Source: Candidatus Tectimicrobiota bacterium
GTDB lineage: Bacteria; Tectomicrobia; Entotheonellia; Entotheonellales; Entotheonellaceae
DNA length: 64,000 bases
Reading direction: 5' to 3'
Assembly (NCBI GenBank): GCA_026005175.1
Contig: BPKO01000001.1
Span: 1-64,000 of the forward strand
A model generated the notes under the pieces. It ran no database searches. It was not told the DNA's origin and saw only the letters and a program-made list of their open reading frames with translations. A program made the translations under genes and the position numbers. Below, in pieces: positions 30,718 to 52,672 of the stretch. Position 1 is the stretch's first letter; each line of letters begins with the position of its first letter.

Positions 30718-30725
30718 AGGCCGAT

Positions 30726-32842: not shown

Positions 32843-32852
32843 GGAGACTCCC

Positions 32853-33164: not shown

Positions 33165-33173
33165 CCAAGCACC

Positions 33174-33770
33174 ATGCTACGGCCGCGTCCTCTCAACACC
33201 CTCATCGAGGAGCTGTGCCGCCTGCCTGGCATTGGGGAGAAGACGGCGCAGCGCCTGGCTTTCTTCTTGCTGCGCGCCCCCAAAGTGCGCGCCGAGCGCC
33301 TGGCGCAGGCGATCGTGGCGATGAAGGAGCAGCTTGTCTTCTGCTCGCAGTGCGGCGGCGTCAGCGAAGACGACCCCTGCCCCATCTGCCGCGACCCGGC
33401 CCGCGACCGCAGCCTCCTCTGCGTGGTGGAAGACCCGAGCGACGTCTTCCTCATCGAGCGCACCGGCACTTACAAGGGGCTGTACCACGTCCTCATGGGG
33501 GTGCTGTCGCCCCTTGACGGCATCGGCCCGGAGCAGCTGCGCATCGAGGCGCTGCTGGAGCGGGTGGCGCAGGGCGGGGTGCGCGAGGTGATCTGCGCCA
33601 CCAACCCCACCATGGAAGGGGAAGCCACCGTCCTTTACTTGGCCAAGCTGCTCAAGCCCCGCGGCGTCCGCCTCACCCGCCTGGCCCACGGCTTGCCGGT
33701 GGGCGGCCACTTGGAGTACGCCGACGAGATTACGCTGGGCCGCTCGCTGGAGGGCCGCCGCGAACTTTAA
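33174..33770 (+). CDS. recR: Recombination protein RecR
   Basis: 198 residues. Helix-hairpin-helix LCRLPGIGEKTAQRLAFFLL, zinc finger with CSQCGGVSEDDPCPIC, and Toprim domain starting LLCVVEDPSDVFLIERTG, with LDGIGPEQL. Works with RecF (and RecO) to load RecA at gaps. The last 41 nt overlap the convergent DUF72 gene. Confidence 0.96.
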   Translation: MLRPRPLNTLIEELCRLPGIGEKTAQRLAFFLLRAPKVRAERLAQAIVAMKEQLVFCSQCGGVSEDDPCPICRDPARDRSLLCVVEDPSDVFLIERTGTYKGLYHVLMGVLSPLDGIGPEQLRIEALLERVAQGGVREVICATNPTMEGEATVLYLAKLLKPRGVRLTRLAHGLPVGGHLEYADEITLGRSLEGRREL

Positions 33771-34512
33771 CCTCCTCTCCCAAAAGCTGGCGCAACAGCA
33801 AGCAGTCGCGCGGGGCGTTGCCCGAAAAGCTGTTCTGCACGTAGCCAAAGACGCGCCCGGCCTGGCGCGCCAGCGCCTGCAGCATCGGCACCCAAGGCCG
33901 CAGCGCCGCCGCCGGGTCGAGCTGGCGGGCGGCGCGCGCCCCGGGGCGGCCGTGCCAGCGCACGTAGGCAAAAGGCGCCGTCACCCGAGGCACGCGGGGC
34001 AAAAAAGGGGCATCGACCACCACCCAGGCCACGCCATGTGCTTCGAGCAGCTGGAAGGTGGACTCGTGCAGCCAGCTGCCGTGGCGAAACTCGATGGCAA
34101 ACGGGGGCTGGGATGGCAGGCGCTGCAGGAAGGCCTCGAGCTGCGGCTGCTCGCTGCGGCGCAAGTCCGCAGGCAGCTGCACGAGCACAGGGCCAAGCTT
34201 CTCGGCCAGCTCGCTGATCACCGCCAGGAAGGCCTCCAGCTCGCGCTCGGCGTGGCGCAGGCGCAGCTCATGGCTGATGCGCCGCGGCAGGCGAGGGCTA
34301 AAGACAAAGTGCGCTGGGGTGCGCGCGTACCAGGCGCGCACCGTGTGCCGCGCCGGCACGGAGAAAAACGTTGACGCGACTTCCACGGTGTCAAAGTGGC
34401 GGGCATAGTACGCCAGGTAGTCGGCGGGGGCCAGCTCGGGCGGGTAGAGGCTGCCCACCCACTGGCGGTACGCCCAGCCCCCGGTGCCGAGCAAAAACGG
34501 CTCAGGCGACAT
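33730..34512 (-). CDS. DUF72 (YecE-like) protein
   Basis: 260 residues with a TIM-barrel DUF72 pattern: LLGTGGWAYRQWVGSLYP at the start, YYARHFDTVEVASTFF, FVFSPRLPRRISH, FAIEFRHGSWL, YVRWHGRPG and VFGYVQNSFSGNAPRDCLLL (normally YFNND.GGHA.NA). Function of DUF72 is unknown. Last gene of the long repair-associated operon; overlaps polX by 11 nt and recR (opposite strand) by 41 nt. Confidence 0.88.
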   Translation of the reverse strand: MSPEPFLLGTGGWAYRQWVGSLYPPELAPADYLAYYARHFDTVEVASTFFSVPARHTVRAWYARTPAHFVFSPRLPRRISHELRLRHAERELEAFLAVISELAEKLGPVLVQLPADLRRSEQPQLEAFLQRLPSQPPFAIEFRHGSWLHESTFQLLEAHGVAWVVVDAPFLPRVPRVTAPFAYVRWHGRPGARAARQLDPAAALRPWVPMLQALARQAGRVFGYVQNSFSGNAPRDCLLLRQLLGEEVKVRGGPPASGPA

Positions 34513-36229
34513 GGTGCGGCTTCCGGGCCCGCAGCCGGGAAAGCAACGCAGCGGCGGGCAGGGCGTTGAGCAGCTGGGCAGCTTCCACCCAGCCGCGGCG
34601 GGCGGTCAGCACGCCGTAGCGCAAAGCGCGCATCTCCTGCACGCTGTGGGCATCCGAGCCCAGGGCAAAGGTCACCCCCAAATCGCGCGCCTGCTGCACG
34701 TAAACGTCGGGAAGGTCGAGGCGCAGCAGGTGACCGTTGATTTCCAGCGCCGTGCCCGTGGCGGCCGCCGTCTCCAGCACCGCCTGCACGTCGAGGTTGG
34801 GCAGCTCGGGACGCCCCAGCAGGCGCCCGGTGGGGTGCGCCAGCACGTGCACCAGGGGATGCTCCAGGGCCTTGCACAGGCGCCGCGTCAAGTCGCGGCG
34901 TGACGCTTTAAGGCCGGTGTGGGCGGCGGCGACGACCAGGTCGAGCTCTTGCAGCAGCGCGGTGTCGAAGTCGAGGTCCCCCGCGGCCGAGATCTCCACC
35001 TCGGCACCGGCCAGCAGGCAAAAGGCAGGGGCAAGCGTGGCGTTGAGGCGGCGGATAGCTTCCAGCTGCTGGGCCAGCTCGCGCGGGGAGAGGCCGCGCC
35101 CGGTGGCCGGACTGTAAGCGTAATCGCAGATGGCCACGTAGCGATAGCCCAGCCGCTGCCCGGCGCGGGCAATGTCTTCCAGGCTGTGGGCGCCGTGGCC
35201 CCACTCGCTGTGCACGTGCAGGTCACCTTGCACGTCGGCGGCGGTGAGCAGCCGTGGCAAGGTGCCGCTCAAGGCCGCTTCGATTTCCCCGCGTCCCTCG
35301 CGCAGCTCCGGGGCAATGAAGGGCAAGCCGAGAAGGGCGTAGAGGGCTTCCTCGCTCGCCACTTCTATCGTGCTGCCGTCCGCGAGCCGCTGCAAGCCCT
35401 CGGCTTGCAGGCGCCAGCCGCGGCGGTGCGCCAGCTGCTGCAGCTGGGCCAGGTGCGCCGCCGAGCCGGTATGCTGCAGCAAGGCAAGGGCAAACTGCGC
35501 CGGTGGCACGGCGGCCAAGGTCAGGCGCAGGCCCTCAGAGGTCAAAAGCGTGGCGGTCGCCGGGCCGCTGGCCAGCACCCGCCGCACCTCTGGCTGCTGC
35601 TGGCAGTGGCGCAGCAGGGCGGAAGGATCGGCGGTGGCGATGACCACGTTGAGGTCGCCTACCCGCGCTGCCCCGCGCCGCAGGCTGCCGGCCAGGGCCA
35701 CCCGCTCTACGCCGGCAAGGCGCGCCAGATTCTGCACCAGCACCTCTGCCCGCGGCAGGGCCACGCCGAGCAGCATGCGCTGCTGCTCGCGCTCCCAAGC
35801 CTCTAGGTCCTTCTCCAAGGCGGCCAGCGTCGTGGCCTCTAGCGGCAGCTTGGCGTCGCGGTGGGCCTGGGCCAGCTGCTTCATAGAGGCGATGCCGTGC
35901 TGGCGCCACAGGATGCGCACTTGCGCGGGGGTGAGGCTGGGCAGGTGCAGCAAGGGCAGGAGGCTTTCCGGCACCGTGGCTTTCAGGCGCTCGTGGTAGC
36001 GCAGACTCCCGGTGTCGAGGAATTCCTGGATCTCCCTGGCCAGGGTCTTGCCGATGCCGGGGATCTCCTCCAGCGCCCCGCGCCGCGCCAGGCTAGAGAG
36101 GCTCTCGCGCAGCCCGGCCAGCGCCTGCGCAGCCCGCCGGTAGGCGCGGATGCGGAAGGGGTCGTCTCCGTGCAGGGCAAGCAGTGCGGCGATCTCACGA
36201 AAGATATGGCTGCACCGCCAGTGGTCCAT
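34502..36229 (-). CDS. polX: PolX-family protein with degenerate polymerase site and PHP domain
   Basis: 575 residues from ATG 36229; the frame is open upstream but that part is antisense to the helicase gene. N-terminal helix-hairpin-helix region (EEIPGIGKTLAREIQEFLDT) and palm AGSLRRGAARVGDLNVVI. Here the family GDxD motif reads GDLN, and the later VDLRVVP block reads LTLAAVP, so two of three metal-binding aspartates are gone. PHP nuclease domain from ~residue 333: DLHVHSEWGHG, GAEVEIS, VAAAHTG, AHPTGRLLGRPE and LGSDAHS are kept, but the usual TDH reads CDY. Probably no polymerase; nuclease activity uncertain. Ten nt after the helicase gene. Confidence 0.85.
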   Translation of the reverse strand: MDHWRCSHIFREIAALLALHGDDPFRIRAYRRAAQALAGLRESLSSLARRGALEEIPGIGKTLAREIQEFLDTGSLRYHERLKATVPESLLPLLHLPSLTPAQVRILWRQHGIASMKQLAQAHRDAKLPLEATTLAALEKDLEAWEREQQRMLLGVALPRAEVLVQNLARLAGVERVALAGSLRRGAARVGDLNVVIATADPSALLRHCQQQPEVRRVLASGPATATLLTSEGLRLTLAAVPPAQFALALLQHTGSAAHLAQLQQLAHRRGWRLQAEGLQRLADGSTIEVASEEALYALLGLPFIAPELREGRGEIEAALSGTLPRLLTAADVQGDLHVHSEWGHGAHSLEDIARAGQRLGYRYVAICDYAYSPATGRGLSPRELAQQLEAIRRLNATLAPAFCLLAGAEVEISAAGDLDFDTALLQELDLVVAAAHTGLKASRRDLTRRLCKALEHPLVHVLAHPTGRLLGRPELPNLDVQAVLETAAATGTALEINGHLLRLDLPDVYVQQARDLGVTFALGSDAHSVQEMRALRYGVLTARRGWVEAAQLLNALPAAALLSRLRARKPHHVA

Positions 36230-36239
36230 TAGCTCGTCC

Positions 36240-38894
36240 TCACCACGGCACCGGCAGCACCAGGGGCTGCCCGCGGCGGTCATCACAGCGAAGAGTCCCG
36301 GTGCGCCGGCCGTACTCAACCAGGGCGCGCAGCAGCTCCAGGTCGCGGCGGCACCGCTGCACCACGCGTGCCGTCTCGCCGGCCCGCAGCCAGGCAACGG
36401 CCGCGCGGCCGTCCTCGGGCCGCTCGATTCCCAGGGTGGCAGCCACCAGCCGCCCCAGGGCAGGCCGAAAGCCCAGGCAGCGCGCCGCTTCCTCGAGCAA
36501 GGCAAGCGTGGGCAGGGTGGCCAGCGAAAAGTCGGTATAGGGCTGGAGCACCCGGTAGTCGAAGTCCCGGGGATTGGCCCCCACCACGCACTCGGCCTGG
36601 CGCAGGCTGGCAATCAGCGCTGCCACCGTCTCTTCAGTATAGCACCGGTACTGCCCGTCGCGCGCATCGTACGTCACGGCCACGCCTAGCCCCAGCCGGT
36701 GGGCGTGCTGCCAGCCGCCCACTTCGTCGGCGCGGCGTTGCGTGCTCAGGCAAAGATAGAGGAAAGCGGGCTCCGGCTCGCTGGGCGGTGTGGCCACGCT
36801 GGCCAGCGGCGGCACCACCTCGCCCAGCAGGCGCTCGAGCAGCGCGGCGCCTTCGCGGCGCGGCAGGGGCAGGCCGCTGCTGCAAGCATCGCAGGCCACC
36901 GCCTCCAGACAGCGCGGGCAGCCGTGCGGGCAGTCGCACAGGTGCAGCAGCTGCAAGGCAAGGCGCAGGAGGCGAGTGCGGGCGCCGTACACGGCAGCGG
37001 CGCTGCCGTTGCCTCCGGCGGTGGCATCGGCAAGGAGCAGCCTCTTCTCCCCGGAAGGCTCGGTAAAGAGGCCGCCGCGCACCTCGGTGCCCACCAGGGC
37101 CAGGGGCAGGACCAAGAGCAGGGCGTGCAGCACGGCGTGCAGGGCGGCGCGGTGGGAAGGAAGCGCCTCTGGCAGCTCCAGCCACACCCCGCGGGTCAAG
37201 AGGGTGCGGGAGCGCGCCGGCAGCGGGTGCAGGCTGCGGCGCGCCGGCAGGCGGTGTTCGTAAGCGACCAGCGTTTCCGCATAGTGCAGCGTACCGTAAG
37301 CCAGCCAGCCCGCCCCGCAGTGCTGGCGGGCCACCGGCTGCCGCTCGGTGACGGTGGCGCGCACCACGCTACGGGTCGGAGGGGCAGCGGGTGCCGGGCG
37401 CACCCGCAAGCGGCGCGCGCTTGCCGCTTCGACCCGCACCGGCCCCTCGCGGGTAAGAAGCACGGCGCCGGGAAAGCCGGCGCGGAAGGCCTGCGCCGCG
37501 GTGAGCTGCGCCAGCGGGCGGCCGGTGGCGCTGTCTACCACCTCCACCGGCGGTTCGTAGTGGGCCAGGCTGAAGCGAGGCGGCGGCCGCTTTTGGGCCT
37601 GTTGCGGCGGCCCTGGGGGGAGCTCGGCGAGGGCGCAGTGGCGGTGCTGCTGGAACACCTGGGGATGGGCCGGGGCCAGCACGAGCTCCTGCGGCCAGGC
37701 GTCCTGATAGACCTCGGGGTAGCGCAGGAGATAGCGCTCGAGCGGCGTGGCGTCCTGCACCACCAGGGTGCTCAGGGTGGGCAGGCCGCTGCTGGCCAGC
37801 GCCGCCAGGTCCTCGTGCAGGCGCAGCAGGGAATCGGGAAGGCCCAGGCACCCCAGGCTGGGCACCGCAAGGGGGCGCAAGGCGGCCAGCGGCACCTCGT
37901 GGGGCAAGAACAGGGCCACCGCCTGGCGCTGCAGCAGCCGCTGCTCGGCGGCATGGTAAGCCTCCCGGCTCGCCCCTGCCGGCAGCGCCAGCAGCGGCAA
38001 GCCCAGGCGCTCGAGCGCGGGCCCCAGCGTCGCCGGCCCCTGGAGCAAAAGCGGCACCCCCAGCTCGCGGTGGCGGTCCAGGAGCTGGCGGCAGACGGCC
38101 AGCGGGTCGCCGCCGGCCTGCAGGAGCAGGCGGTGCTGCGCTTGCCGCTCTACCGGTTCGCCCGCCACCAGGGCACAGGGCGCGCCCAGCAAGGTGCGGG
38201 CCACGTGGGCCGCGTTGGCCAGGGGGGCGGTGGTCAGCAGAACGTGTGGCTGCCCCCCGTAGTGGCAGGCGAGGCGTTGCAGGCGCTGCAGCAGGTGGGC
38301 CAGATGCGCCCCCGGGGCGCCACCGTAGGCGTGCACGTCGCTTACCACCACGCAGCGCAATCCGGCAAAGAACGCCGGCCAGCGGGCGTGGCCGGCCAGC
38401 AGGCAGGCGTGCAGTCCCTGTGGCGTGGCGAGCACTAGGGGCGGCAGTGCCTGCGGCGGCTTGTCTTCACCGCCAAGCAGCGAGGCGGCCAGGCACACCT
38501 CTGGCGGCAGCCGCTCGTTCCAGGCCAGCAGCGTGGCCAGCTGGCGCTGTCCTTGCAGCGCGTCGGGCACCACCAGCAGAGCGTGGGCCGCCGCCTGGCC
38601 TGCGCAGGCCAGCAGCAGCGCCAGCAGCCGCAGCACGCCGCGGCCACTGCCGGCCGGGGCCGCCAGGCACACCGGCGTGCCGCGGTGGAGCAGCGCCAGG
38701 GCCTGCGCTTGGTGCGCGGCCAGCTGCGTGATCCCCTGCGCGTGCAGCGCGGCGCGCAGCCAGGGAGGGAAGGTGGCGGGCAGCGCCTGCCGGGGAGCGG
38801 CGTGCGGAGGCGCGACGAGGGCCGAAGCCACCGCCGTGCCGGCAGGGGGCCGGTGGGTCAGCTCGGCAAACAGCGCCGCCAGGGGGGAAGTCAT
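36240..38894 (-). CDS. MrfA/Hrq1-type helicase-nuclease fusion with lost catalytic motifs
   Basis: 884 residues. Layout matches bacterial DEAD/H helicases with a C-terminal zinc (DUF1998/MZB) domain: CDCPHGCPRCLEAVACDACSS near residue 650-670. An RNase H-like exonuclease domain from ~710 to the end follows (RADEVGGWQHAHRLGLGVAV, VVGANPRDFDYRVLQPY, RDLELLRALVEYG). But Walker A reads APAGSGRGV (79-87) instead of GSGKT, Walker B reads VVSDVHAYGG instead of DEVH, the arginine-finger GRAGR block is missing, and the exonuclease DxE reads CLS. A preserved fold with dead active sites is inferred. Overlaps the sbcC stop as ATGA. Confidence 0.8.
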   Translation of the reverse strand: MTSPLAALFAELTHRPPAGTAVASALVAPPHAAPRQALPATFPPWLRAALHAQGITQLAAHQAQALALLHRGTPVCLAAPAGSGRGVLRLLALLLACAGQAAAHALLVVPDALQGQRQLATLLAWNERLPPEVCLAASLLGGEDKPPQALPPLVLATPQGLHACLLAGHARWPAFFAGLRCVVVSDVHAYGGAPGAHLAHLLQRLQRLACHYGGQPHVLLTTAPLANAAHVARTLLGAPCALVAGEPVERQAQHRLLLQAGGDPLAVCRQLLDRHRELGVPLLLQGPATLGPALERLGLPLLALPAGASREAYHAAEQRLLQRQAVALFLPHEVPLAALRPLAVPSLGCLGLPDSLLRLHEDLAALASSGLPTLSTLVVQDATPLERYLLRYPEVYQDAWPQELVLAPAHPQVFQQHRHCALAELPPGPPQQAQKRPPPRFSLAHYEPPVEVVDSATGRPLAQLTAAQAFRAGFPGAVLLTREGPVRVEAASARRLRVRPAPAAPPTRSVVRATVTERQPVARQHCGAGWLAYGTLHYAETLVAYEHRLPARRSLHPLPARSRTLLTRGVWLELPEALPSHRAALHAVLHALLLVLPLALVGTEVRGGLFTEPSGEKRLLLADATAGGNGSAAAVYGARTRLLRLALQLLHLCDCPHGCPRCLEAVACDACSSGLPLPRREGAALLERLLGEVVPPLASVATPPSEPEPAFLYLCLSTQRRADEVGGWQHAHRLGLGVAVTYDARDGQYRCYTEETVAALIASLRQAECVVGANPRDFDYRVLQPYTDFSLATLPTLALLEEAARCLGFRPALGRLVAATLGIERPEDGRAAVAWLRAGETARVVQRCRRDLELLRALVEYGRRTGTLRCDDRRGQPLVLPVPW

Positions 38895-41800
38895 GACAGC
38901 ACCTGGTAGAACGAACCGCGCAGCGGGTCCTTTTTCACCTCGATGTGGGTGGCAAAGGCATTTTTGAGGTCGCGCAGGTGGGTGATGATGATGATTTTGG
39001 CAAAGTCGTCCTGGATGGCCTTGATCACTTCCAGCAGGCGCTCGAGCCCCTGGCTGTCCTGGGTGCCAAAACCCTCATCGATCACCAGGGTACGCAGGCG
39101 GGCGCCGGCGCGCCGGGCCAGCAGCTTGGAGAGGGCAATGCGCAGGGCAAAATTGATGCGAAACGCCTCGCCGCCGGAAAACAGCTCGTAGTGACGCGTG
39201 CCCAGGGCGTCGCTGATTTTGATGTCCAGGGTTTCGATGACGCTGCCGCTGCGCGTGTCGCGCTGGGTTTCTAGCGTCAGGTGCATGGCGTTGTCGGTGA
39301 TGCGGGCCAGGATGCGGTTGGCTTCGTCTTCCAGCTCCGGCAGGGCGTTTTCGATGATCAGCGCCTGGATGCCGTTTTTGCTAAAGATCTGCGCCAGGTC
39401 CCCGTAGAGGGCGCGTTCGGTCACCAGCTGGGTGCGCTGGGCTTGCCGTTCTTCGAGTTCTGCCTCGCGCTGCAGGCAGTCCTCGTAGCGCGACTGCAGG
39501 CGGCCCAGGGCCAGGCGCGCCTCGCCCTCGCGGGCGCGCAGGTTGGCTAGCTGCGCTGCCGTCTGCGTCAGCGCGGCCTCCGTCTGGTGCAAGTCGGCAA
39601 GGACCGAGGCGTGCTGCTGCGCCTCGGCGGCCAGCGCCTGCAGCTCCGCTTCCCAGCGCTGCTGCGTTGCCTCCAGCCGCTCAAGGGCGAGGCGTTCGGC
39701 CTGCAGCTGCTGGCGGGCCAGCTCCAGGGTGGCGTACTGCTGGGCTGCGGGCTGCAGCGCCTGCAGGCGCTGGCGCAGGGCCTGGTACGCGGCGGGGTCG
39801 AACTGCAGCTGGGCCAGGCGCTGCTGCACGGCATGCAGCTCGGCGCGCTCGGCCTCGGCAAACTGCTGCGTGCCCAGCGCCTGCTCGAGGCGCGCTGCCT
39901 GCTGCGCCAGCGCCTGCAGCTGCGCCTGCAGCTCGGCCACCTCGGTGCGCGCCTGCTCGAGGCGGGCGTACTGCACTTCGGCCTCGGCCAGCCGCTGCAG
40001 GTCGCGGCGCAGCGCCTGGTGGGCTGTCGGGTCGTAGGCGAGGCCCTCCAGCTCGGCGGTCAGCTGCTGCAGCGCCGCCAGCTCTTCGGCAGCGTAGCTG
40101 CCCGAGGCGAGCTGGGCGTCGAGCTCTTGCAGCTGCGCCATGAGGGCGGCCAGGGCCTGGCGGGCCTGGCGGGCTTCCTCCAGGCGCGTTTGCACCAGGG
40201 CGTACTGCTGCTCCAGTTCGGCGCGCTGCTCTAACTTCTGCTCGAGCTGCTTGTACTCTAGGCGCAGCGCCTGGCGCTGCTGCTGCAAGCGCTGCGCCTC
40301 GTGCTCGAGCTCTTCGATGCGCCGCTGGCGCTGGGCGATTTCCTGGGCCAGCTTGCGCAGCACGCGCTGGCGCTCGGCGTCGGTGAGGGCCTTTTCGCAC
40401 AGCGGGCAGTGCGCGCCAGCCTGGTCGAGCAGCCGGCGCGTGGTGTGCTGCTGCCGCACCTCTTCTTGCAGCGTGGCCAGGGCTTGCGGGATGCTCTGCT
40501 CGATTTGCACTTTGAGCGTCACCCCGGTGGCGCGCACTTCGTCAAGGCGCTGCTTCGTGCGTTCTGCTTCTTGCAGCTCGGCCTGCAAGGCGCGCAGGCG
40601 CTCCTCCCAGGTAGCCAGGCTGGCCTCCTTCTGCTGCCACTCCTGCTGGCGGTCGAGCAGCGAGCGCTGCTGCAGCTCCAGGGCGTGCCGCTTCTGCTGC
40701 AGGCGCTGCTCCACCTCGCGGCGGCGCTGCTCCAGTACGTAGCGGCGCTGCAGCGTCTGGGCCAGCTCGGCCTCGCGCTGCCGCAGCTGCTGCAGCTGCT
40801 GGTAAGCCGCTTCGATGCGGGGGGCGGCCTGCAGGGTTTGCTGGCAGGTCTCAAGGCGCACCGCCACTTCCTGCCGGCGCTGCTGCACGCCGTGCAGCTC
40901 CAGCTCCAGGCGCTGGGCGGCTGCGGCAATGGCCTGCTGCAGGCGTGCCGCTTCCTGCTGCAGGGCGGCATGGGTTTCGGCCAGGGCGTGGTACTGGTGC
41001 TCCTGGGCTTGCAGGGCCTGGAGCTCCTCGTAAGCGGCGGTAATGGCCGCCTCCTGCTTGACGATGGCTTCAAAATCGGCGAGGCGGCGGGCATGCTGGG
41101 CCTTCTGGCGCGCGGCCTCCTGCAGTTCTCGCTGCAGCTGCTGCTGGCGCCGCGCCAGCTCGTCGGCGCGCTGGTGCTGCAGGCGCAGGGTGCTGGCGCG
41201 CTGGGTGAGCGCCTCGTGGTGCGCCTGGGTAGCCTGCAGCTCGGCCTGCAGCTGGGCCAGGGTTTCCTGCTGGGCAGCGAGCGCCGCGGCCAGTTCTTCC
41301 TTGCGGGCCACCGCCTGGCGCAGCTCTTCGAGGCGCTGGTCGAGGGCCTGCACTTGCTGGTCGAGGGCGCCGCGGTGCATTTTGGCCCGCGCTTCCAGGG
41401 CATCGAACACCGACAGGCCGAGGATGTCGGCCAGGATGCGCTTGCGTTCGGCCGGCCGCCGGGTGGTGAACTCGTCGGCGCGCCCTTGCAGCACGAACAC
41501 CGAGTTGATGAACGTCTCGTAGTTCATGCGCAGCAGCTGGGTGATTTTGGCCTCGGTGTCGCGGATGCTGCTGCCGCTTAAGGCCCGCCACTGGCCGCTG
41601 TGGCGGTCGAAGCCCTGCAGCTCCAGGGACGACAGGCCGCTGCGCGGGCGCAGGCTGCGCTTGCGCAGCACGCGGTAGCGCTCGTCCTCGAGCTCAAATT
41701 CGAACTCCACCTCGGCCTCTTCCTGCCCCAGGCGCACCACGTCGTCGAGGTTTTTGGCGCGCGTCTGCCCCCACAGGGCCCAGGTGATGGCGTCGAGCAG

Positions 41801-43155: not shown

Positions 43156-43158
43156 GAC

Positions 43159-44799
43159 TTAGCCCTCCCCGAAGAGGTCGGCGATGTTGGCCTGTGCCTT
43201 GCGGGCCAGCTCCTTGCCTTCCACGTAGCCCAGCGCGGCGTAAAACGCCGGGTCGTAATCGCGGGTGCGGATTACGACCGGCATGGGCACGGCGTGGCCC
43301 ATGAGCAGGGCCTGCTGCTTGGAGTCGAGGCTGGCCAGCACGCTGCGCAGCCAGCTGGCGTTGCTCACCCCGGTGAGCACGGCGTTGATGTCTTTTTCGT
43401 CGTTGAGCAGCGAGGTGATGCGCGTGCCAATCTGCGACATGATCTCGTCGTCGATGCTTGAGGGGCGCTGGTCGACGATGAGCAGGGAAACGAAGTACTT
43501 GCGCATTTCGCGGGCGATGGTGCCGAAAATCGTCTGGCGCGCCGCCACCGGGTTGAGGAACTTGTGCGCTTCCTCGATGGTGATGATCAGCTGCTTGGGC
43601 TTGTCCTGGGGGCGGCCGCTGGCCAAGTACTTCTCGGTCTTCATCACGTAGAGGTCGTGGATGCGGCGCGTCAGAATATTGGCCACCAGCATGTAGCAGA
43701 GGAAGCTGCTCTGCTGCCCGAACTCGAGCACGACGTGCACGCCGCGGTCTAGGCACTCCATGATCTTGTAGACGGCGTCCTCGCTCACCTGCTCGCGCAG
43801 GAAGTCGAACTTCTCCAGGCGCTTGAGCTTGCGGTGCAGCGCCGCGATCGATTCGGGGTGGGCGCCGATGTCGGCGGCAAAGTCCTTAAGGTCTTTGGGC
43901 TCCTGCCGCAGCAGGGTGGAGAGCCAGTCGCGGCCGTAGCGGTTGACGATGAGGTAAGCCGACTCCACCGCCGTGGGGTTGAGGTTGAGCTCGTCGGCCA
44001 GCGGGGCGATGTCTTCCACGGTGATCTGGTTGTAGGGAATGTGCACGGTAAAGTCGCTCTGTACGCCGCGCCGCCGCGCCGACTCCGGGTCGAGGGTGAA
44101 AATGGCCACCTTGCTGCCAAAGAGCTGCTTGAGCCCTTTGACAAAGCCGCCTTGCCCGGGGCCAGACTCCTGTGTTGCCTGCCAGCCGTACTCGCTGTGC
44201 ATGTCGAAGACGAGGTTGACGGCGCGGTTCTTGTGGATGAGGCCGGCCAGCACGAGGCGGGTGAGAAACGTCTTGCCGGTGCCGGTCTTGCCGAAGATGC
44301 CGTTGCTGCGCTCGATGAAGCTCTCCAGGTCGATGCAGATGGGGGTTTCCATGTCCAGGGGGCGGCCGATGTGGAAGTAGCGGGGGTGGCGCGCCTCGCT
44401 GCCGAAGATGCGGTTGACGTCTTCCTCGTCGGCCTCGCACACCACCGAGAAGTGCACCGGGATGGTCTTCACCAGGTGCGGCTCGCCACTGCTTTCGTCT
44501 TTGTCCATCATCAGCAGCGGCCGCAAGCAGACGGTGCCGTAGGTGGCGGTGCCGTGCAGCACCTGGCGCATGAGCTCTTCTTCCTCCCCCGGCGGGTCGG
44601 CCAGCACCTGCGGGTTGGTGGTGTCCAGGCGCACGTCGGTGACCATGCAGAAAAAGCGGCTCTTTTCGCCTTCGATGACCACGAACTTGCCGGCGCGTAC
44701 GTCCTCGACCGAGTACCACTCGTCGAGCTTCATTTCCAGCCCGCCGATGAGCGAGCCGTTGACGACCACACCCACCCGTCGTCTCCCTTTGTACAGCAT
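43159..44799 (-). CDS. herA: HerA-type DNA translocase ATPase (first copy, next to Mre11)
   Basis: About 546 residues from ATG 44799; GTG 44805 is in frame two codons earlier. The N-terminal ~110 residues form a HAS-barrel-like region (VGVVVNGSLIGGLEMKLD). FtsK/HerA RecA-fold core: Walker A GIFGKTGTGKTFLTRLVLAG near residue 165-185, Walker B LIITIEEAHKFLNP, LLIVDQRPSSID (sensor-like) and ISLLNDE-like TSLLNDEKDIN. Hexameric ATPase that in archaea works with NurA and Mre11-Rad50 in end resection. Directly upstream of sbcD here, which supports the same role. Confidence 0.92.
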   Translation of the reverse strand: MLYKGRRRVGVVVNGSLIGGLEMKLDEWYSVEDVRAGKFVVIEGEKSRFFCMVTDVRLDTTNPQVLADPPGEEEELMRQVLHGTATYGTVCLRPLLMMDKDESSGEPHLVKTIPVHFSVVCEADEEDVNRIFGSEARHPRYFHIGRPLDMETPICIDLESFIERSNGIFGKTGTGKTFLTRLVLAGLIHKNRAVNLVFDMHSEYGWQATQESGPGQGGFVKGLKQLFGSKVAIFTLDPESARRRGVQSDFTVHIPYNQITVEDIAPLADELNLNPTAVESAYLIVNRYGRDWLSTLLRQEPKDLKDFAADIGAHPESIAALHRKLKRLEKFDFLREQVSEDAVYKIMECLDRGVHVVLEFGQQSSFLCYMLVANILTRRIHDLYVMKTEKYLASGRPQDKPKQLIITIEEAHKFLNPVAARQTIFGTIAREMRKYFVSLLIVDQRPSSIDDEIMSQIGTRITSLLNDEKDINAVLTGVSNASWLRSVLASLDSKQQALLMGHAVPMPVVIRTRDYDPAFYAALGYVEGKELARKAQANIADLFGEG

Positions 44800-44823
44800 G
44801 CTCACGACCCCCTTGGCAAGCGA

Positions 44824-45402
44824 TTAGGATTCCTGGATGCGATGGAGGATCGACGCCAGCATTTCGTAATCGTCGCCGATCAGCTTGACCAGCGCCTTGC
44901 CGGCCTGCACCAGGAAGCTGCGCTCCCCCTGGCGTACGGCATAGGCGGCACGGATGGCGGCGGCGATGAGTTCGTCGCGTGGGGCTTTTTCCACGCTCAG
45001 CAGAAAGCGCAGGAACCAAAAGCGCGCCGTCAGGCGCCGCACTTCCATGGGATGGCAGACGTAGACGAAGCTGTGCAGCCGCGGCGGCTGCGGCGGCAGG
45101 TAGTGGCGGATGCTGCCGTTGCTTTCGTAGCCGATGATCACCGCTTCAAACTTGGTCTTTAGCAGCTCGAAGATCTGGGGCTGCTCGTCGCGCAGCTCCT
45201 GCTCCGAGCGGTGGTAGGCAATGGCCAGCCGGTTGGGCTCCAGGCTGTGGGTGTAGGCGTTAAAGACCACGCCGTAGATGGGCTCGCGCGCTTTGACTTT
45301 GATGAAGCTTCCAAAAGGGGGAGACTGGTGCAGCAGCGTGCTTTCGGCAATGAATTCCGTGTTGCTGCTGCCGATCACCTCGCCAACTTCCTCGTCGTAC
45401 AT
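44824..45402 (-). CDS. Stand-alone HAS-barrel protein
   Basis: 192 residues. The first ~110 residues look like a HAS barrel (HerA/ATP-synthase barrel): GEVIGSSNTEFIAES, PPFGSFIKVKA, IYGVVFNAYTHSLEPNR. A helical tail with VRRLTARFWFLRFLLSV and LVQAGKALVKLIGDDYEML follows. No enzyme motif is visible. Between nurA (4 nt) and herA (24 nt), so likely an accessory subunit of the HerA-NurA machine, perhaps capping the hexamer. Assignment of the barrel is from recall of the family pattern and should be tested by profile search. Confidence 0.7.
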   Translation of the reverse strand: MYDEEVGEVIGSSNTEFIAESTLLHQSPPFGSFIKVKAREPIYGVVFNAYTHSLEPNRLAIAYHRSEQELRDEQPQIFELLKTKFEAVIIGYESNGSIRHYLPPQPPRLHSFVYVCHPMEVRRLTARFWFLRFLLSVEKAPRDELIAAAIRAAYAVRQGERSFLVQAGKALVKLIGDDYEMLASILHRIQES

Positions 45403-45406
45403 CCCT

Positions 45407-46582
45407 CTACACCGTCATGCGTCGCTTGCGCAGGGTTTTGGGCGACACGGCGGCCCGCACGCCGCGGCGCACCAGGGCCGCCGTCACCATCTCGTAAAAC
45501 AGCTCGCGCTCGGCACCGCGGATGACCGCGTGCTGGTGCGCTTCGGCCAGCGCCACCGGGTATCCCCCGCCCTTTTGGGCCTGGTCGTAGGCCGTGGCGT
45601 GCACGAGCGCCAGCCGCGCCGGGTCGCTGGCCACCCAGCGCGGCACTTCCACGCGCACCACCTCGGCGCCCACGTGCAGGTAGAAAAAGACGATGCGGTG
45701 CGGCCCGTAGGCCTCGAGGACGCGCGAGGCACTGTCAAAGACGGCGGTGCGCTCGCCGGGCCGCAGCAGGCGGGCAAAGAGGTGGCTGTCGCTCAGCCCC
45801 TCGATGGCCGCGCACGGCAGGCGCGGCAGCTCGCGGTACGGGCAGCGGTCGCAGTTGGCCACCTCCTCCGGGCACAGCCCCACGCGCAGGGCGTTGAGCA
45901 CGTCGCGGCTGCGCGGGCGGCTGATGTAGCCGGCCAGGGGAATGCCCTGCTGCCGCGCCGCCTCCAGGCAAGCCAGGTAGCGCGCCAGCGTCTCTTGCTG
46001 GTAGTCCTGGGGCTTGCCTTCGAGCTGCCACAGGATGAGGCTGCCGTCGGCCAGGGCGCAGGTGGGGTGCCCTTTGGCGGCGGCCGCGCTGGCTTGCTGC
46101 AGCAAGGCGTCAAACTCCATGAGGGTGCGGCGCATGCCCAGCAGCTCGCCGCTCACCGCCACCTGCTGCCCGCCGTACGTCGTGTAGAGGTCTTCTTCCC
46201 GGTAGTACAGGGTGGGGGTGCTGCGCAGCACGGCGCGCTCCCCGCTGCCGTAAGGCAAGACCACGGTGGCGATGTTGAGCAGAAACGCGGCGGCCACTTC
46301 GTGGCGGCTGGGAGCGATCTGCGAGCCGTCGGCCGCCACCACCACCAGCGGCCGCGGGCACGGCGGCAAGGGGTAAGTCTGCGTCAGCGGTTCGTGGATC
46401 CCCGCCAGCAGCCACGACGTCTTGCTCAGCGCCAGCTTGCGGCAAAACGCCTCCAGGCGCTGCGACTCCAGCCGCAGCTGGTGCAGGGCGCTGTCGAGCC
46501 GCTTGTGTACGTCGTCCACCGCCAGCTGGGCTTCCGCCGCCATGGCGGCGATTTGCTGGCTCACTTGACGCCAGTCGAGCAT
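45407..46582 (-). CDS. nurA: NurA 5'-3' nuclease
   Basis: 391 residues from ATG 46582. NurA domain: VVVAADGSQIAPSRHEVAA (first catalytic Asp) near residue 85, TCALADGSLILWQLEG (second Asp) near 200, and a C-terminal block with VVRVEVPRWVASDPARLALVH and YPVALAEAHQHAVI. A CPYRELPRLPC-like cysteine stretch (CDRCPYRELPRLPC) sits mid-protein. RNase H-like nuclease that HerA drives along DNA ends. Overlaps rusA by 22 nt. Confidence 0.9.
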   Translation of the reverse strand: MLDWRQVSQQIAAMAAEAQLAVDDVHKRLDSALHQLRLESQRLEAFCRKLALSKTSWLLAGIHEPLTQTYPLPPCPRPLVVVAADGSQIAPSRHEVAAAFLLNIATVVLPYGSGERAVLRSTPTLYYREEDLYTTYGGQQVAVSGELLGMRRTLMEFDALLQQASAAAAKGHPTCALADGSLILWQLEGKPQDYQQETLARYLACLEAARQQGIPLAGYISRPRSRDVLNALRVGLCPEEVANCDRCPYRELPRLPCAAIEGLSDSHLFARLLRPGERTAVFDSASRVLEAYGPHRIVFFYLHVGAEVVRVEVPRWVASDPARLALVHATAYDQAQKGGGYPVALAEAHQHAVIRGAERELFYEMVTAALVRRGVRAAVSPKTLRKRRMTV

Positions 46583-47109
46583 GCTTCTCCCTCTGCAGGC
46601 CCTTCCCACTGGTAGCGGGCAGCCAGCTCGGCCAGGCTGCGCAGGCGCCGCCGCCGGCGCCGCCGGCTTTTGCCCGCCGTGGCCCACCACGGCACCTCGG
46701 CAGGGGGCGCGCTGGCAGGCAGCGCCGCGCGCTCGAGCGCCGTCAGGCACAGCTCGGTGCGCGGCAGCTGCGGATCGACGCGTTTGTAGAGGTGGATTTC
46801 CACCACCAGGGTGTCGTTGATGCCCAGCGCCTCGCACAGGGCGTCCTGGGTGATTTTCAGCCCGCCGTCGAGGTCGCGCCGCCACGCCGTATCAAAGTAA
46901 AACGTGATGTGGAGGGCAAAGGTGTGCTGCCGCAGCTGCGCCAGCGCTGCCCGCGGCACTTGCTGCGCCTCGAGCCACCGCTCCACCGCCTCGGCCACCA
47001 GGGCCTTAAAGGCGCGGCCGGCGCGCGAGAGCACGCGGCGGCCGGCCACGGTGGCGTACTGGTGGTTGATGCTGGGCGGCAGGGGCAGGCTCAGGGCAAC
47101 GGTACGCAT
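46561..47109 (-). CDS. RusA-family Holliday junction resolvase
   Basis: 182 residues from ATG 47109; GTG 47112 precedes it directly. LSLPLPPSINHQYATV at the N-terminus and the catalytic block RRDLDGGLKITQDALCEALGIND, with the DxD and following Asp of RusA (DLDN..K..DAL), then VVEIHLYKR. Longer than E. coli RusA (120) by an Arg-rich C-terminal tail (GKSRRRRRRRLRSL). Such genes are usually prophage-borne; here it sits inside the HerA-NurA operon with no phage genes around. Confidence 0.87.
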   Translation of the reverse strand: MRTVALSLPLPPSINHQYATVAGRRVLSRAGRAFKALVAEAVERWLEAQQVPRAALAQLRQHTFALHITFYFDTAWRRDLDGGLKITQDALCEALGINDTLVVEIHLYKRVDPQLPRTELCLTALERAALPASAPPAEVPWWATAGKSRRRRRRRLRSLAELAARYQWEGPAEGEACSTGVK

Positions 47110-49013
47110 CACGAGGCTCCGCGGGGTCGGCCGCCCGCTTCCTGGCAGACCACGGTGACGGGCTGCTGCAGCAGCGCGCTCAGCTCTTTCTCCACCAGGG
47201 CGCGGTAGGCCGGCTCTTCAAGCATCTCGCGGTGGAAGCGGTCGCGCGCCGTAAAGCTCAGCACCAGGGTGCCGCCTTGCAGGCGCGTGGGGCGGCCGGC
47301 CACCAGCACCGAGCCCAGAAAGGCGCTCTTGTCGCGAAGGCGGGCCACCACCTCTGGCCAGCGCGCCTGCAAGCGCGCCAGCAGCGCCGCTTCCTGCGGC
47401 GACGGTGGCGCCGCCAGCGGCAGCGGCGCCTGCCGGGGACCCTGCCCGTCGCTGGGCGGGGGGGCGGCCGGCGGCGTGCCGTTGCCGCCCGAAAGGCGCG
47501 GCTTGAAGAAGTACTGCGTTTCTCCGGCCGTATGGATGCCTTTGAGCTCTTTGACTTTGATGATCACCGGGTACTGCCGCGTCACGTCGCCCAGGACGAG
47601 GGCGTGGTGGCGCCGCAGGCGCTTGACAAACGACGCCATGGTTTCCTGGTCTACCATGGCGCTCTTGCTGATGTGGCGCACGTCGTCGTCAAAGGGAAGG
47701 TGCAGCAGGAAAAGGTTGTCCACTTGCCGCAGCACCGTCTCGTCGAGGCCCCCGATCATGTTGGTGACAAAAAAGCAGGTAATTCCCAGGTGGCGCGAGC
47801 GGGTGACGATGTAGCCGATGGTGTTGCGGCTGATGTAGAGGTGGGCCTCTTCGAAAAAGACAAAGGGAAAGCGCCCGGTGCCGCGCTGGATCTCCTGCTC
47901 GCAGATCTCGCGCAGGATGTCGAGGATGGCCTGCACAAAGCCCTGGCGCGACAGGTTGGTGAGGTTGGAGAGGTCAATCACCAGGGCGCCGCCGTGGCGG
48001 ATGCGGTGGTACTCGGCCTGCAGCGAGGTGGCCTCCTCGGGGCGTTCGGCAAAGACGCCGGTGTTGCGCGCCGCTTCCAGGCGGCTGCGGATGGCGGCGC
48101 TGACCACCTCGTTGCTGGAAAATTCCAAGTCGTCGGCCATGTCGATGAGGTGTTGGATGCCGATGAAGGGCACTTTCTTGCCCTGCCGCTCGTAGTGCCA
48201 GAGTTCTTGAAACAAGCGGGCCATGCGGTTTTCGAAGTGCATGGCCGACACCTCCGGCAGCCCCAGCTTGGTGAGCAGGGTCACCAGGGGGCTCAGGCCG
48301 AACTGGCGCACGCCCAGCTTGAGCGTCTCGCCCGCCTTGAGGTGCACGATGCCGCGGCGGCGCACCTGGCCAGAAAAGGGGTCGTCCTCGTGCCGCGGCA
48401 GGTGGACGTACTCCTTGTTGAGGTCAAAGACCACGCACGGCGCCCCCGCCTGGATGAGCTCGAGCAAGAGCACCTTGGCCAGGTGCGACTTGCCGGCGCC
48501 TTTGACGCCGGTAATGACGTTGATTTTTTCCAGGTGGCGGCCCTCGATGCAAAAGGGGTGGCCGCGCAGCGTCTCGCCCAGGTGCAGGGGGTTGCCCAAG
48601 TCGTCCAGGCAGTTGGCAAACAGCTCCTGGTCGCTGACCCGCGTCACTTCCACGTCGCGCGTCGGGATCCAGCCGTCCCACTGGTCCCAGCGCGGCCCGG
48701 CGAGCTTGCGGATCTTGCAGATGGCCACTTTGAGGTTGCGCGCTTCGCTGCTTTCCCACTCGCGCAAGGCTTCTTGCGCCTCCGAGAGGTAAGAGAGCAG
48801 GTCGGCCGGCGTGGCCCCCATGGCCAGCTGCAGCTGCTCCTGGATGAGCGAGGGGTACGTCACCATGCGAAAGGCGACGATTTGCACCACCAGGCCGCCC
48901 TCGCGCTCGCGCTCCTGAAGGCACAGCGTCTCCCCGACGCGCAGGTCTTCCTCGCGCGGGTTGAAGATCAGCTCGACCACGTCGCCTTTGACCTGGTGCA
49001 CCTGGATGCTCAC
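47109..49013 (-). CDS. Second HerA-like ATPase with DnaX-like C-terminal extension
   Basis: 634 residues from GTG 49013, overlapping the mraZ stop as GTGA. N-terminal HAS-barrel-like region (VKGDVVELIFNPREEDLRVG); Walker A VITGVKGAGKSHLAKVLL near residue 168-185; Walker B FPFVFFEEAHLYISR; GITCFFVTNMIGGLDETVL as sensor region. After a proline-rich linker (~515-540) a separate C-terminal domain (WPEVVARLRDKSAFLGSVL...LVLSFTARDRFHREML) resembles the C-terminal domain of DnaX, including the DnaX in this window. The fusion suggests a link to the replisome (inference). Confidence 0.85.
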   Translation of the reverse strand: MSIQVHQVKGDVVELIFNPREEDLRVGETLCLQEREREGGLVVQIVAFRMVTYPSLIQEQLQLAMGATPADLLSYLSEAQEALREWESSEARNLKVAICKIRKLAGPRWDQWDGWIPTRDVEVTRVSDQELFANCLDDLGNPLHLGETLRGHPFCIEGRHLEKINVITGVKGAGKSHLAKVLLLELIQAGAPCVVFDLNKEYVHLPRHEDDPFSGQVRRRGIVHLKAGETLKLGVRQFGLSPLVTLLTKLGLPEVSAMHFENRMARLFQELWHYERQGKKVPFIGIQHLIDMADDLEFSSNEVVSAAIRSRLEAARNTGVFAERPEEATSLQAEYHRIRHGGALVIDLSNLTNLSRQGFVQAILDILREICEQEIQRGTGRFPFVFFEEAHLYISRNTIGYIVTRSRHLGITCFFVTNMIGGLDETVLRQVDNLFLLHLPFDDDVRHISKSAMVDQETMASFVKRLRRHHALVLGDVTRQYPVIIKVKELKGIHTAGETQYFFKPRLSGGNGTPPAAPPPSDGQGPRQAPLPLAAPPSPQEAALLARLQARWPEVVARLRDKSAFLGSVLVAGRPTRLQGGTLVLSFTARDRFHREMLEEPAYRALVEKELSALLQQPVTVVCQEAGGRPRGAS

Positions 49014-49492
49014 CGCTCCACTCCTGGCCACAGGGGTTTGATGCTCGGCATCTGCAGCACCCGGCCGAGCGCCGTCTCGTGCGCTTCTTCGAGTTGCGCG
49101 AGGTGCGCTTGCCAGGCGGCCTGGCTCCAGACCTCCAGGCGGTCGTACATCCCCACCAGCACCGCCTCGTCGTCGATACCGGCGTGCTCGCGGAACTTGC
49201 GCGGAACGAGGAGGCGGCCGGCGCGGTCGACTTCCAGCTCCAGTACCTCCGAGACCACGTAGTGCATGAAGAGGCGGCTTTCGTGCTCGCTCAGGCGCTG
49301 CCGCTGCACTTCCAGCAACGCGTACCAGTTGGGCAGGGGGAAAAGCCACAGGCAGCGCTCCTGCTGCGAGCGTACCAGCACCGCTTTTTTTACTTCTGGG
49401 TCGGCGGGCAGGGCAAAGCGGTCGCGCAGCGAGGCGGGCAGCGCAAAGCGCCCTTTCTCGTCGAGCTTGCACGAAAATTCGCCGGCAAACAT
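49010..49492 (-). CDS. mraZ: MraZ transcriptional regulator
   Basis: 160 residues. Two AbrB-like halves: FAGEFSCKLDEKGRFALPAS and VVSEVLELEVDRAGRLLVPR, followed by DEAVLVGMYDRLEVWSQ. MraZ normally heads the dcw cell-division cluster and represses it by binding TGGGN repeats. Here rsmH, ftsL or fts genes do not follow. Instead it leads the HerA-NurA-Mre11-Rad50 genes, 36 nt after recA. I see no TGGGN direct repeats in the short upstream gap. Confidence 0.93.
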   Translation of the reverse strand: MFAGEFSCKLDEKGRFALPASLRDRFALPADPEVKKAVLVRSQQERCLWLFPLPNWYALLEVQRQRLSEHESRLFMHYVVSEVLELEVDRAGRLLVPRKFREHAGIDDEAVLVGMYDRLEVWSQAAWQAHLAQLEEAHETALGRVLQMPSIKPLWPGVER

Positions 49493-49528
49493 GCCCCTCC
49501 CCTTTCAGGCCGGCGCGCCGCCTTGCCT

Positions 49529-50611
49529 CTAGGACTTGCTGGCGCGGGCCGCGGCCTCTTCGGCAAACAGGCTGCTGTCTTCGGCTTGCGAAGCGCGCAG
49601 CAGCTCGCTGGTGCGCTGCGGCAGCTGCAGCGCCTGGCGCACCTCGGCCTCGATGGCCGCCGCCACCTCGGGGTGCTCGAGGAGGTAGGTGCGGGCGTTG
49701 TCGCGTCCCTGGCCGATGCGCTCCTCGCCGTAAGCAAACCAGGCGCCGCTCTTTTGCAGGATACCGTACTTGACCGCCAAGTCGAGCAGCTCGCCCACGT
49801 AGGAGATGCCGCTGCCGTAGAGGATATCAAACTCGGCTTCGCGAAACGGCGGTGCCAGCTTGTTTTTTACCACCTTCACCCGCGTGCGGTTGCCCACCAC
49901 CTCCTGGCCCACCTTGATGGCCTCCACGCGGCGGATGTCGAGGCGCACCGAGGCGTAGAACTTCAGGGCGTTGCCGCCGGTGGTGGTTTCCGGGTTGCCG
50001 AAGAAGACGCCGATTTTCTGCCGGATCTGGTTGATGAAAATGACGCAGGTGTTGGTCTTGTGGATCACCCCGGTGAGCTTGCGCAGCGCCTGCGACATGA
50101 GGCGCGCCTGCAGCCCCATCTGCGGGTCGCCCATGTCGCCGTTGATTTCTGCCTGGGGCACCAGGGCGGCCACCGAGTCGATGACGATGACGTCGAGCGC
50201 CCCGCTGCGCACCAGCACGTCGGCGATTTCCAGCGCCTGCTCGCCGCTGTCGGGCTGGGAGATGAGCAGGTTGTCGATGTTCACCCCCAGCCGCCGGGCG
50301 TACGCCGGGTCGAGGGCGTGCTCGGCATCGATGAAGGCCGCCTCGCCGCCGCTGCGCTGCGCCGAGGCGATGACGTGCAGGGCCAGGGTGGTCTTGCCCG
50401 AGGCTTCCGGCCCGTAGATTTCGGTGACGCGGCCGCGCGGAATGCCGCCGATGCCCAGCGCCGCGTCGAGGGTCAGCGAGCCGCTGGGAATCACTGGGAT
50501 GTCCAAGGCCTGGCTTTCGCCCAGGCGCATGATGGCGCCTTTGCCAAACTGCTTCTCGATCTGGGCAAAGGCCAAATCGAGGGCCCGCTGCTTGTCGTCG
50601 CTCTTGCTCAT
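49529..50611 (-). CDS. recA: Recombinase RecA
   Basis: 360 residues. Walker [21 protein letters not shown] at residues 67-86, [16 protein letters not shown] (Walker B region), [39 protein letters not shown], and the usual C-terminal domain with acidic/Ser end. Strand exchange and LexA co-protease. Starts 10 nt after radA, so it has no promoter of its own apart from the lexA one (or one inside radA). Confidence 0.97.
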
Positions 50612-50621
50612 GTCGGTCTCC

Positions 50622-51992
50622 TTACCGCAGAGGTTTCTCTGGCGCCGCCGCGGCGAGCGCTTCGAGCGCCTCGGCCACGCTGCGCACCCCCCAGCGCGCC
50701 AGGCCGGCCACCTCTGGCGCCGCCTCCTCGCTACCGGCAGGCAGCAGGCAGCGGCAGAAGCCGAGCTTGGCCGCCTCGCGCAGCCGCGCTTCGACTTGGG
50801 TGACGGCGCGCACTTCGCCCGTCAGGCCCACTTCGCCAAAGACCACCAGCCCCGGATCGACGGCCACCTCGCGCAGGCTCGACACCACCGCCGCGATCAC
50901 CCCCAAGTCGACGGCCGGCTCGTCGACTTGCAGGCCGCCCACCACGTTGACGTAAACGTCGTACTGCTGCAAGGGCAGGCCCAGGCGCTTTTCCAGCACC
51001 GCCAGCAGCAGCACCACGCGCTGGTAGTCGACGCCGCTTGCCACGCGGCGCGGCGTGCCAAAGCCGCTGGGGCTGGCCAGGGCCTGCAGCTCCACCAGCA
51101 GCGGCCGCGTGCCTTCCACGCTGGCCACCACCACCGAGCCGCTGGTGCCCTGCGGCCGCTCGGCGAGCAAGTGCGCCGAGGGGTTGGGCACTTCCGCCAG
51201 CCCCGTCTGGCGCATCTCGAAAATGCCCAGCTCGTTGGTGGGGCCAAAGCGGTTCTTGACGGCGCGCAGGAGGCGGCAGGCGTGGTGGCGCTCGCCTTCA
51301 AAGTAAAGCACCGTGTCCACCATGTGCTCGAGCACCCGCGGCCCGGCAATCGCCCCTTCCTTGGTGACGTGGCCGATAAGAAAGACGGGCAGCTGCGTCG
51401 CTTTGGCCAGCGCCAGCAGCTGCGCCGCGCTTTCCCGCACCTGGCCGATGCTGCCCGGGGTGGCGGGCAGCGCGCTGCTGTAAACCGTCTGGATGGAGTC
51501 GACGATCAGGGCCTGCGGCTGCAAGCGCCGCGCCTGCTCGCAGATCGTCTCTACCGCGGTTTCGGTAAAGACGTAGACCCGCGGCTCGCGAATGCCCAGC
51601 CGTTCGGCGCGCAGGCGCAGCTGGCTGGCCGATTCCTCGCCCGAGACGTAAAGGACCGGGCCGCTGCGGCTGAGGCCGGCGGCGGCTTGCAGCAAGAGGG
51701 TCGATTTGCCAATGCCCGGATCGCCGCCGATGAGCACCACCGACCCTTTGACCAGGCCGCCGCCCAGCACCCGGTCTAGCTCCGCCATGCCGGTGGACAG
51801 CCGCGCCTCGCCGTCGCCGCTTATCTCGGGCAGCGGCAGCGGCGCGGTGGCAGGCGCCGCGGCCCGCCGCGGTGCCGCGGGCACCTCTTCCACCAGGCTG
51901 TGCCACGCCCCGCAGTCCGGACAGCGCCCCAGCCACTTGCCGGCCTGGTAGCCGCAGCTCTGGCACGTAAAGACGCTTTTAGGCCTCGGCAT
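50622..51992 (-). CDS. radA: DNA repair protein RadA (Sms)
   Basis: 456 residues from ATG 51992 (TGATG junction with lexA). Zinc finger [18 protein letters not shown] at 9-26, Walker [15 protein letters not shown] near 97, RadA-specific [11 protein letters not shown] near 250, and a C-terminal Lon-like domain ([20 protein letters not shown]). Branch-migration helicase of recombination intermediates. The frame is open to 52034 but overlaps lexA. Confidence 0.96.
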
Positions 51993-52606
51993 CACTGCAC
52001 CCTCGGGCGGATGAGCCCCGTCACCTTGCCGCAAATGCGCACCTCGCTCACCCGGATGGGGGCAAGGCGGGCGTTGGCCGGCTGCAGCCGCACGCTGCCG
52101 GCCTCGCGGTAAAAGCGCTTCACCGTCACCTCGTCACCCAGCAGGGCCACCACGATGTCGCCGTTGTCGGCATAAGCCTGGGGACGCACCAGCACGTAGT
52201 CGCCGTCAAAGATGCCGGCCTCGACCATGCTGTCGCCTTCGATGCGCAAGGCAAAGGTGTCTGGGCTCTTCACCAGGCTGGGATCGACGACCAGGGTGCC
52301 CTCGCGGTTTTCCACCGCCAGGATGGGCAAGCCGGCGGTCACCCGCCCCAGGATGGGCACTTCCACGCCGTCAGCGGCCGCCGCGGGCCGCCGGTCAGCC
52401 ACTGCGATGCCCCGCGAGGTGCGCGTGGCGCGCCGGATGTAGCCTTTTTTTTCCAAGGCCTTGAGGTGAGCCCGCACGCCGTTGGTGGAGCGGATGCCCA
52501 GCGCCTCGCCGATCTGGCGCAGGCTGGGCGGCACGCCGGTGGCCGCCACCACCTGGGCGATGAAGTCGAGGATCTGGCGCTGCCGAGCCGTCAGCGGCGG
52601 TTTCAT
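51992..52606 (-). CDS. lexA: LexA SOS repressor
   Basis: 204 residues from ATG 52606. Winged helix LTARQRQILDFIAQVVAATG with LRQIGEALGIRSTNGVRAHLK, self-cleavage site Ala91-Gly92 in GRVTAGLP, catalytic Ser126 in RIEGDSM and Lys163 in DEVTVKRFYRE. Represses SOS genes until RecA filaments trigger cleavage. Its own promoter carries a palindromic operator. First gene of lexA-radA-recA and, by spacing, of the long operon beyond. Confidence 0.96.
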   Translation of the reverse strand: MKPPLTARQRQILDFIAQVVAATGVPPSLRQIGEALGIRSTNGVRAHLKALEKKGYIRRATRTSRGIAVADRRPAAAADGVEVPILGRVTAGLPILAVENREGTLVVDPSLVKSPDTFALRIEGDSMVEAGIFDGDYVLVRPQAYADNGDIVVALLGDEVTVKRFYREAGSVRLQPANARLAPIRVSEVRICGKVTGLIRPRVQ

Positions 52607-52638
52607 GCCCCCCTCCCTGCGGGCAAGTGCTCGCATGA

Positions 52639-52667: not shown

Positions 52668-52672
52668 GCAGA

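Follow-up and report, generated by a model that had tools for sequence, protein, structure and literature searches.

Our results indicate that a lexA-headed run of genes in the Entotheonella family is probably an operon for repairing double-strand breaks, where DNA ends would be resected for RecA by SbcCD and HerA-NurA. In the 64,000-nt window (the whole stretch of DNA analysed, from an assembly of 3.99 Mb and 77% completeness, G000), the run comprises 14 collinear, intact ORFs on the minus strand, at 33730-52606. This reading rests on the intact genes, on their near-zero gaps and on an order kept in three relatives belonging to two further genera. It also draws on a palindrome conserved in the spacer of the lexA promoter, the recurrence, in G002, of a lexA-promoter 14-mer at an SplB-like gene and a single LexA with its catalytic residues. 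Further support comes from the known biochemistry of Deinococcus NurA-HerA and from the linkage of nurA, HAS barrel and herA in several phyla. The combination of genes is new, and its parts are already known.

Gene run and conservation in the family

The genes are arranged in the order lexA-radA-recA-mraZ-herA2-rusA-nurA-HASbarrel-herA-sbcD-sbcC-yprA/B fusion-polX-DUF72 (Table 1). Their names rest on Pfam and NCBIfam model matches, which uphold the identities given in a first-pass annotation with three refinements: a DnaX-type tail on herA2, a YprA-like assignment for the "helicase-nuclease" and a modelled HAS barrel. The same annotation had placed fourteen minus-strand genes behind one LexA-type promoter, no more than 36 nt apart and with many stop/start overlaps, and this was verified. 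Spacing reaches +36 nt at most and otherwise consists of small gaps or overlaps; several junctions are 4-nt stop/start overlaps, and the lexA stop overlaps the radA start in TGATG at position 51992.

The close relatives compared were three genomes of the same family (G001-G003, from two further genera) and one of the class (G004). G002 and G003 (OY282375.1, "uncultured Candidatus Entotheonella sp.") are single-contig circular chromosomes with the order minC-minD-minE-lexA-radA-recA-mraZ-nurA-HAS-herA-sbcD-sbcC-(methyltransferase-like gene)-polX. The G001 run, read only to the contig end, is lexA-radA-recA-(mraZ remnant)-herA2-rusA-nurA-HAS-herA. The core order, for which a search of relatives had been proposed, is kept in all three other family genomes. 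All fourteen genes are present in the window, but they are not a fixed unit: herA2-rusA occurs in two genomes (the window and G001), the yprA/B fusion was seen in the window alone and DUF72 is optional. The family core consists of lexA, radA, recA, nurA, HAS, herA, sbcD, sbcC and polX, and of mraZ too, save for the remnant in G001.

Table 1. Features of the lexA-headed run and its promoter region, with one related gene of G002. Coordinates are those of the window unless a locus is given.
Feature	Position	Strand	Details
DUF72 protein, last gene	33730..34512	-	PF01904 8.9e-63
polX	34502..36229	-	575 aa; polymerase aspartates substituted
YprA/MrfA-like helicase (yprA/B fusion)	36240..38894	-	MZB + DEAD; 6znp YprA 1.5e-30
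sbcC (Rad50-like)	38891..41923	-	1010 aa; zinc hook CPLC; PF13476, PF13558, PF04423
sbcD (Mre11-like)	41920..43155	-	411 aa; TIGR00619 124.8 bits, cut-off 77.65
herA, bacterial type	43159..44805	-	548 aa; DUF87 5.3e-35, HAS-barrel 2.6e-7
stand-alone HAS-barrel protein	44824..45402	-	192 aa; PF09378 25.1 bits, cut-off 25.2
nurA	45407..46582	-	391 aa; PF09376 5.6e-38
rusA-type Holliday junction resolvase	46561..47112	-	183 aa; PF05866 8.8e-7; phrog_34
herA2, HerA-family ATPase with C-terminal DnaX tau-type domain	47109..49013	-	634 aa; DUF87 4.7e-13, DnaX_C 1.5e-7
mraZ paralogue	49010..49492	-	160 aa; PF02381
recA	49529..50611	-	360 aa; PF00154 1.8e-141
radA	50622..51992	-	456 aa
lexA	51992..52606	-	204 aa; PF01726 + PF00717
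possible second, imperfect operator TACTCATGCGAGCA	52628..52641	-	weaker evidence; TGCTCATTTGTGCA at corresponding place in G002
lexA promoter	52639..52667	-	-35 TTGACA 52662-52667, 17-nt spacer, -10 TATTAC 52639-52644
putative LexA operator TGCTAAAATGTGCA	52646..52659	-	in spacer of lexA promoter
long palindrome between minE and lexA	52672..52730	.	GGGGACAGGCTAC arms; REP-like, possible terminator of min genes
G002 radical-SAM gene, PA0069 family, SplB-like	L237:588-1740		exact lexA-promoter 14-mer in its promoter

The lexA promoter and its putative operator

The proposal that a LexA-type promoter heads the run is supported by comparison. The promoter is conserved in G001, G002 and G003, with TTGAC(A/T) as the -35 across the four family genomes, and in all four a palindrome TGC-N8-GCA lies between the -35 and the -10 of lexA, kept while most of the flanking sequence diverges. 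The combination of -35 and palindrome has a single match in the 64 kb window and none in shuffles. The less regular second copy overlaps the -10 or follows it, with a 1-nt offset between genera. The operator box may resemble a Fibrobacter LexA box. LexA itself keeps, by alignment, the Ala-Gly cleavage site plus the Ser and Lys of the S24 peptidase, and is the single match to LexA_DNA_bind in the window's assembly.

In G002, the exact 14-mer of the lexA promoter, TGCTCATTTGTGCA, recurs in the 17-nt spacer between TTGATA and TATATT of the SplB-like radical-SAM gene. Since SplB-type radical-SAM genes are reported to be SOS regulated in several species (PMC8565304), the sharing of this 14-mer by the two promoters supports LexA control of the operon. 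Co-regulation of the run from the lexA promoter is well supported by the sequence comparison, and we infer that DNA damage would induce it. Genome-wide searches weigh against the break-repair reading, as the operator shows no clear enrichment and few further targets were found: two degenerate LexA-box patterns did not clearly exceed the reversed control, with matches mostly in coding regions, and the 30-mer promoter pattern, at up to 3 mismatches, retrieved lexA together with matches judged to be chance. A Y-family polymerase, searched for as an SOS control gene, was found in none of the four family genomes. The SOS regulons with recA and splB targets described elsewhere (PMC8565304) are alike in having recA and an SplB-like radical-SAM gene that share the operator of lexA; here, in contrast, the operator is different, end-resection genes lie in the lexA operon and no Y-family polymerase was found in the four genomes.

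End-processing genes and their companions

HerA carries a HAS barrel and a DUF87 core and is encoded in the same operon as a NurA-domain protein, which places the pair among HerA-NurA systems. The adjacent metallophosphoesterase and split SMC-type ATPase with zinc hook are likewise of the SbcCD/Mre11-Rad50 kind, with SbcC matching TIGR00618 at 5.6e-87, under the model cut-off. The set had been described as an archaeal machine, which the sequences do not sustain, since HerA and NurA are of bacterial type. HerA is closest to bacterial HerA, with 62-66% identity to that of Latescibacterota/Gemmatimonadota-type bacteria, and scores far under the cut-offs of the archaeal models (NF040937, 83/800 bits; NF040819, 60/970). 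On both grounds, archaeal transfer of HerA was rejected. The archaeal HerA-NurA-Mre11-Rad50 set has the same four partners side by side and the same proposed job, but differs from the present one, whose sequences are of bacterial type, which includes a stand-alone HAS-barrel protein as an extra component and which is linked to LexA, RadA and RecA. NurA gave no sequence match to solved structures. The AlphaFold model of the stand-alone HAS-barrel protein (pLDDT 88.9) finds its best matches in the N-terminal HAS barrels of HerA, with Z up to 13.6. This protein is likely a third partner of HerA-NurA, and beside NurA it may cap, load or regulate the HerA-NurA contact.

In Deinococcus, HerA touches NurA through its HAS barrels, and the NurA-HerA complex resects 5' ends (PMC9960219). 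The same paper calls the cellular role of bacterial HerA-NurA controversial and reports modest or opposite effects on resistance when nurA or herA is lost in Deinococcus or Thermus (PMC9960219), which argues against the break-repair reading. HerA and NurA are of bacterial type in Deinococcus as they are here; their role there is disputed and the available text describes no lexA-headed layout (PMC9960219), whereas the present run is headed by lexA and includes sbcD and sbcC. That HerA-NurA shares a conserved run with LexA, RecA and SbcCD argues strongly, at the genomic level, for a break-repair role in bacteria, and it adds a bacterial lineage whose lexA operon itself contains resection genes. 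A RecB/AddA-like helicase-nuclease adjoining an AddB-like one is also encoded in the window's genome, so HerA-NurA need not be the main resection machine of this organism; as the sole one it was rejected for this genome, and the pair counts against the break-repair reading. A PDDEXK_1 search found no AddAB-like pair in G002 or G003, which is weak evidence of absence.

The tail of herA2 matches the NCBIfam DnaX model (3.1e-10), and the tau-type domain is also found in the window's own DnaX; the homologue match in G101 stops before the tau-like tail, and that in G004 takes it in. A phage origin of herA2 was rejected, as no relative was found in viral contigs and the phrog matches were to generic ATPases only. 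The Holliday resolvase said to have been added to the set is of RusA type, by PF05866 and phrog_34.

Two further products look inactive, which also speaks against the break-repair reading. PolX looks catalytically eroded: the residues that we take, from knowledge of the PolX motif, to be its second and third catalytic aspartates are replaced by N and T in the window (N and T/S over the window, G002 and G003), and in G002 and G003 erosion extends to the PHP metal ligands. Given these losses, PolX may have a binding or scaffolding role. As for the "helicase-nuclease", a YprA(MrfA)-like helicase is there, but its motifs are degenerate in the 6znp alignment (Walker A GSGRG vs SGKT, Walker B SDVH vs DELH), and Pfam recognises nothing in the C-terminal 185 residues, which by eye resemble an MrfB-like/DEDD exonuclease with the first motif lost. 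The YprA/B fusion thus looks catalytically eroded. It resembles Bacillus MrfA/MrfB (YprA/YprB) in its sequence match to YprA and its MZB zinc domain, and differs in the degenerate Walker A and B. Fusions of YprA-YprB homologues have been described (PMC12458937).

The window's genome (contig C7), G002 and G003 each carry another mraZ within the dcw cluster. TGGG-type repeats are the known type of MraZ operator. The dcw copy of G002 has rsmH downstream and TGGG-N6 repeats just upstream (L260:1813-1836), and this pairing, typical of a dcw MraZ unit, is not that of the operon copies, near which, as in the repair operons as a whole, no TGGG-type operator was found. Regulation of the operon by MraZ through the known TGGG box was rejected on this basis. 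The set had been called "led by MraZ"; the dcw paralogue elsewhere, the missing repeats and the mere remnant in G001 give no ground for casting the operon MraZ as its leader.

A HerA-alignment scan of genome contigs gave 80 loci. Outside the family, the genes nurA, HAS and herA occur together, in the same order, in Latescibacterota, Gemmatimonadota-type bacteria, Chloroflexi and Armatimonadota, and two of these loci continue with sbcD or sbcD-sbcC; unlike here, these modules have no adjoining lexA, radA, recA or mraZ. None of the extra-family loci among the 80 had lexA, radA or mraZ, and recA was near HerA in three, all Thermosynechococcus, on the opposite strand. No other operon gene was found in 20 recA neighbourhoods of other lineages (tblastn 1e-4, at which a diverged lexA could escape). 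The statement that no described system has the full layout holds among the genomes and literature searched, and the end-processing set is, as claimed, physically tied to the SOS regulator and recombinase in one conserved lexA-headed run.

Proposed function and alternative readings

In the established picture of these protein families, SbcCD deals with blocked ends and HerA-NurA with resection of the 5' strand; invasion falls to RecA, help with branch processing to RadA and resolution to RusA. On the break-repair reading, LexA bound to TGC-N8-GCA between the -35 and -10 would repress its own operon until damage, when RecA on single-stranded DNA would bring about LexA self-cleavage and the whole run would be transcribed. 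SbcD-SbcC would then open or trim blocked ends, and the HerA hexamer, contacted via HAS barrels, would feed DNA to the NurA dimer, which would resect the 5' strand. Strand exchange and branch processing would be the task of RecA and RadA, and RusA, where present, would resolve junctions. In addition, herA2, via its tau-like tail, may bring the replisome another HerA-type motor. A broader proposal, which we put forward tentatively, is that the core SOS response has been packed into one error-free break-repair operon: LexA would release HerA-NurA-HAS-SbcCD and RecA from one promoter, replacing RecBCD/AddAB in some members, in a regulon that dispenses with a Y-family mutagenic polymerase.

It is also conceivable, if rather unlikely, that LexA controls lexA-radA-recA alone and that mraZ onward forms a separate, constitutive end-processing operon whose proximity is inherited. 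Within the window's run, recA and mraZ are separated by the widest gap (36 nt; 64 nt in G002 and 55 nt in G003), the product of mraZ is DNA-binding, nurA-HAS-herA forms a module of its own elsewhere and G004 has mraZ immediately upstream of herA2 at a place apart from recA. Yet when an internal promoter or terminator splitting mraZ onward from recA was looked for, the promoter scan found no sigma-70-like site inside the 14-gene run, terminator-like matches on both strands were near chance level (16 vs 11.3 +/- 3.7 in shuffles) and the predicted fold of the 36-nt gap is no stronger than that of shuffles (z 0.45). The order kept across the family and the missing TGGG-type MraZ site point the same way.

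HerA and YprA families take part in many defence systems (PADLOC HerA matches; PMC12458937), and HerA with nucleases, the YprA-like helicase and RusA could be imagined to act against phage. We consider this very improbable and rejected a defence island: PADLOC matches were limited to the HerA-family, SbcC-like and YprA-like ATPases, with none for NurA, HAS-barrel, SbcD or RusA, while the core is kept family-wide with lexA, recA and minCDE, and no relative of herA2 turned up in viral contigs. The neighbouring dnaA and minCDE, like the tau-like tail on herA2, would suit a HerA-NurA set that serves not break repair but chromosome handling, such as translocation or the processing of dimers or the terminus, coordinated with replication and division; the tight linkage to lexA, recA and sbcD-sbcC in every readable relative makes this scarcely credible.

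The flanks of the run hold some further features. The long palindrome between minE and lexA has a fold z-score of -7.5 and is absent upstream of lexA in G001-G003. In the window, minD is split at 53050-53860 by an apparent frameshift in an A5 run (..GLEK / KNRIVFD..), which may be an assembly error. G002 has a Cas3-like HD/helicase gene, recognised by eye, downstream of polX (L015:1-2740). At the other end of the window's run, the DUF72 gene and recR are convergent and overlap by 41 nt (33730-33770), and the stretch 29807-33770 carries four serine tRNAs and one arginine tRNA, then dnaX, a YbaB-like gene and recR.
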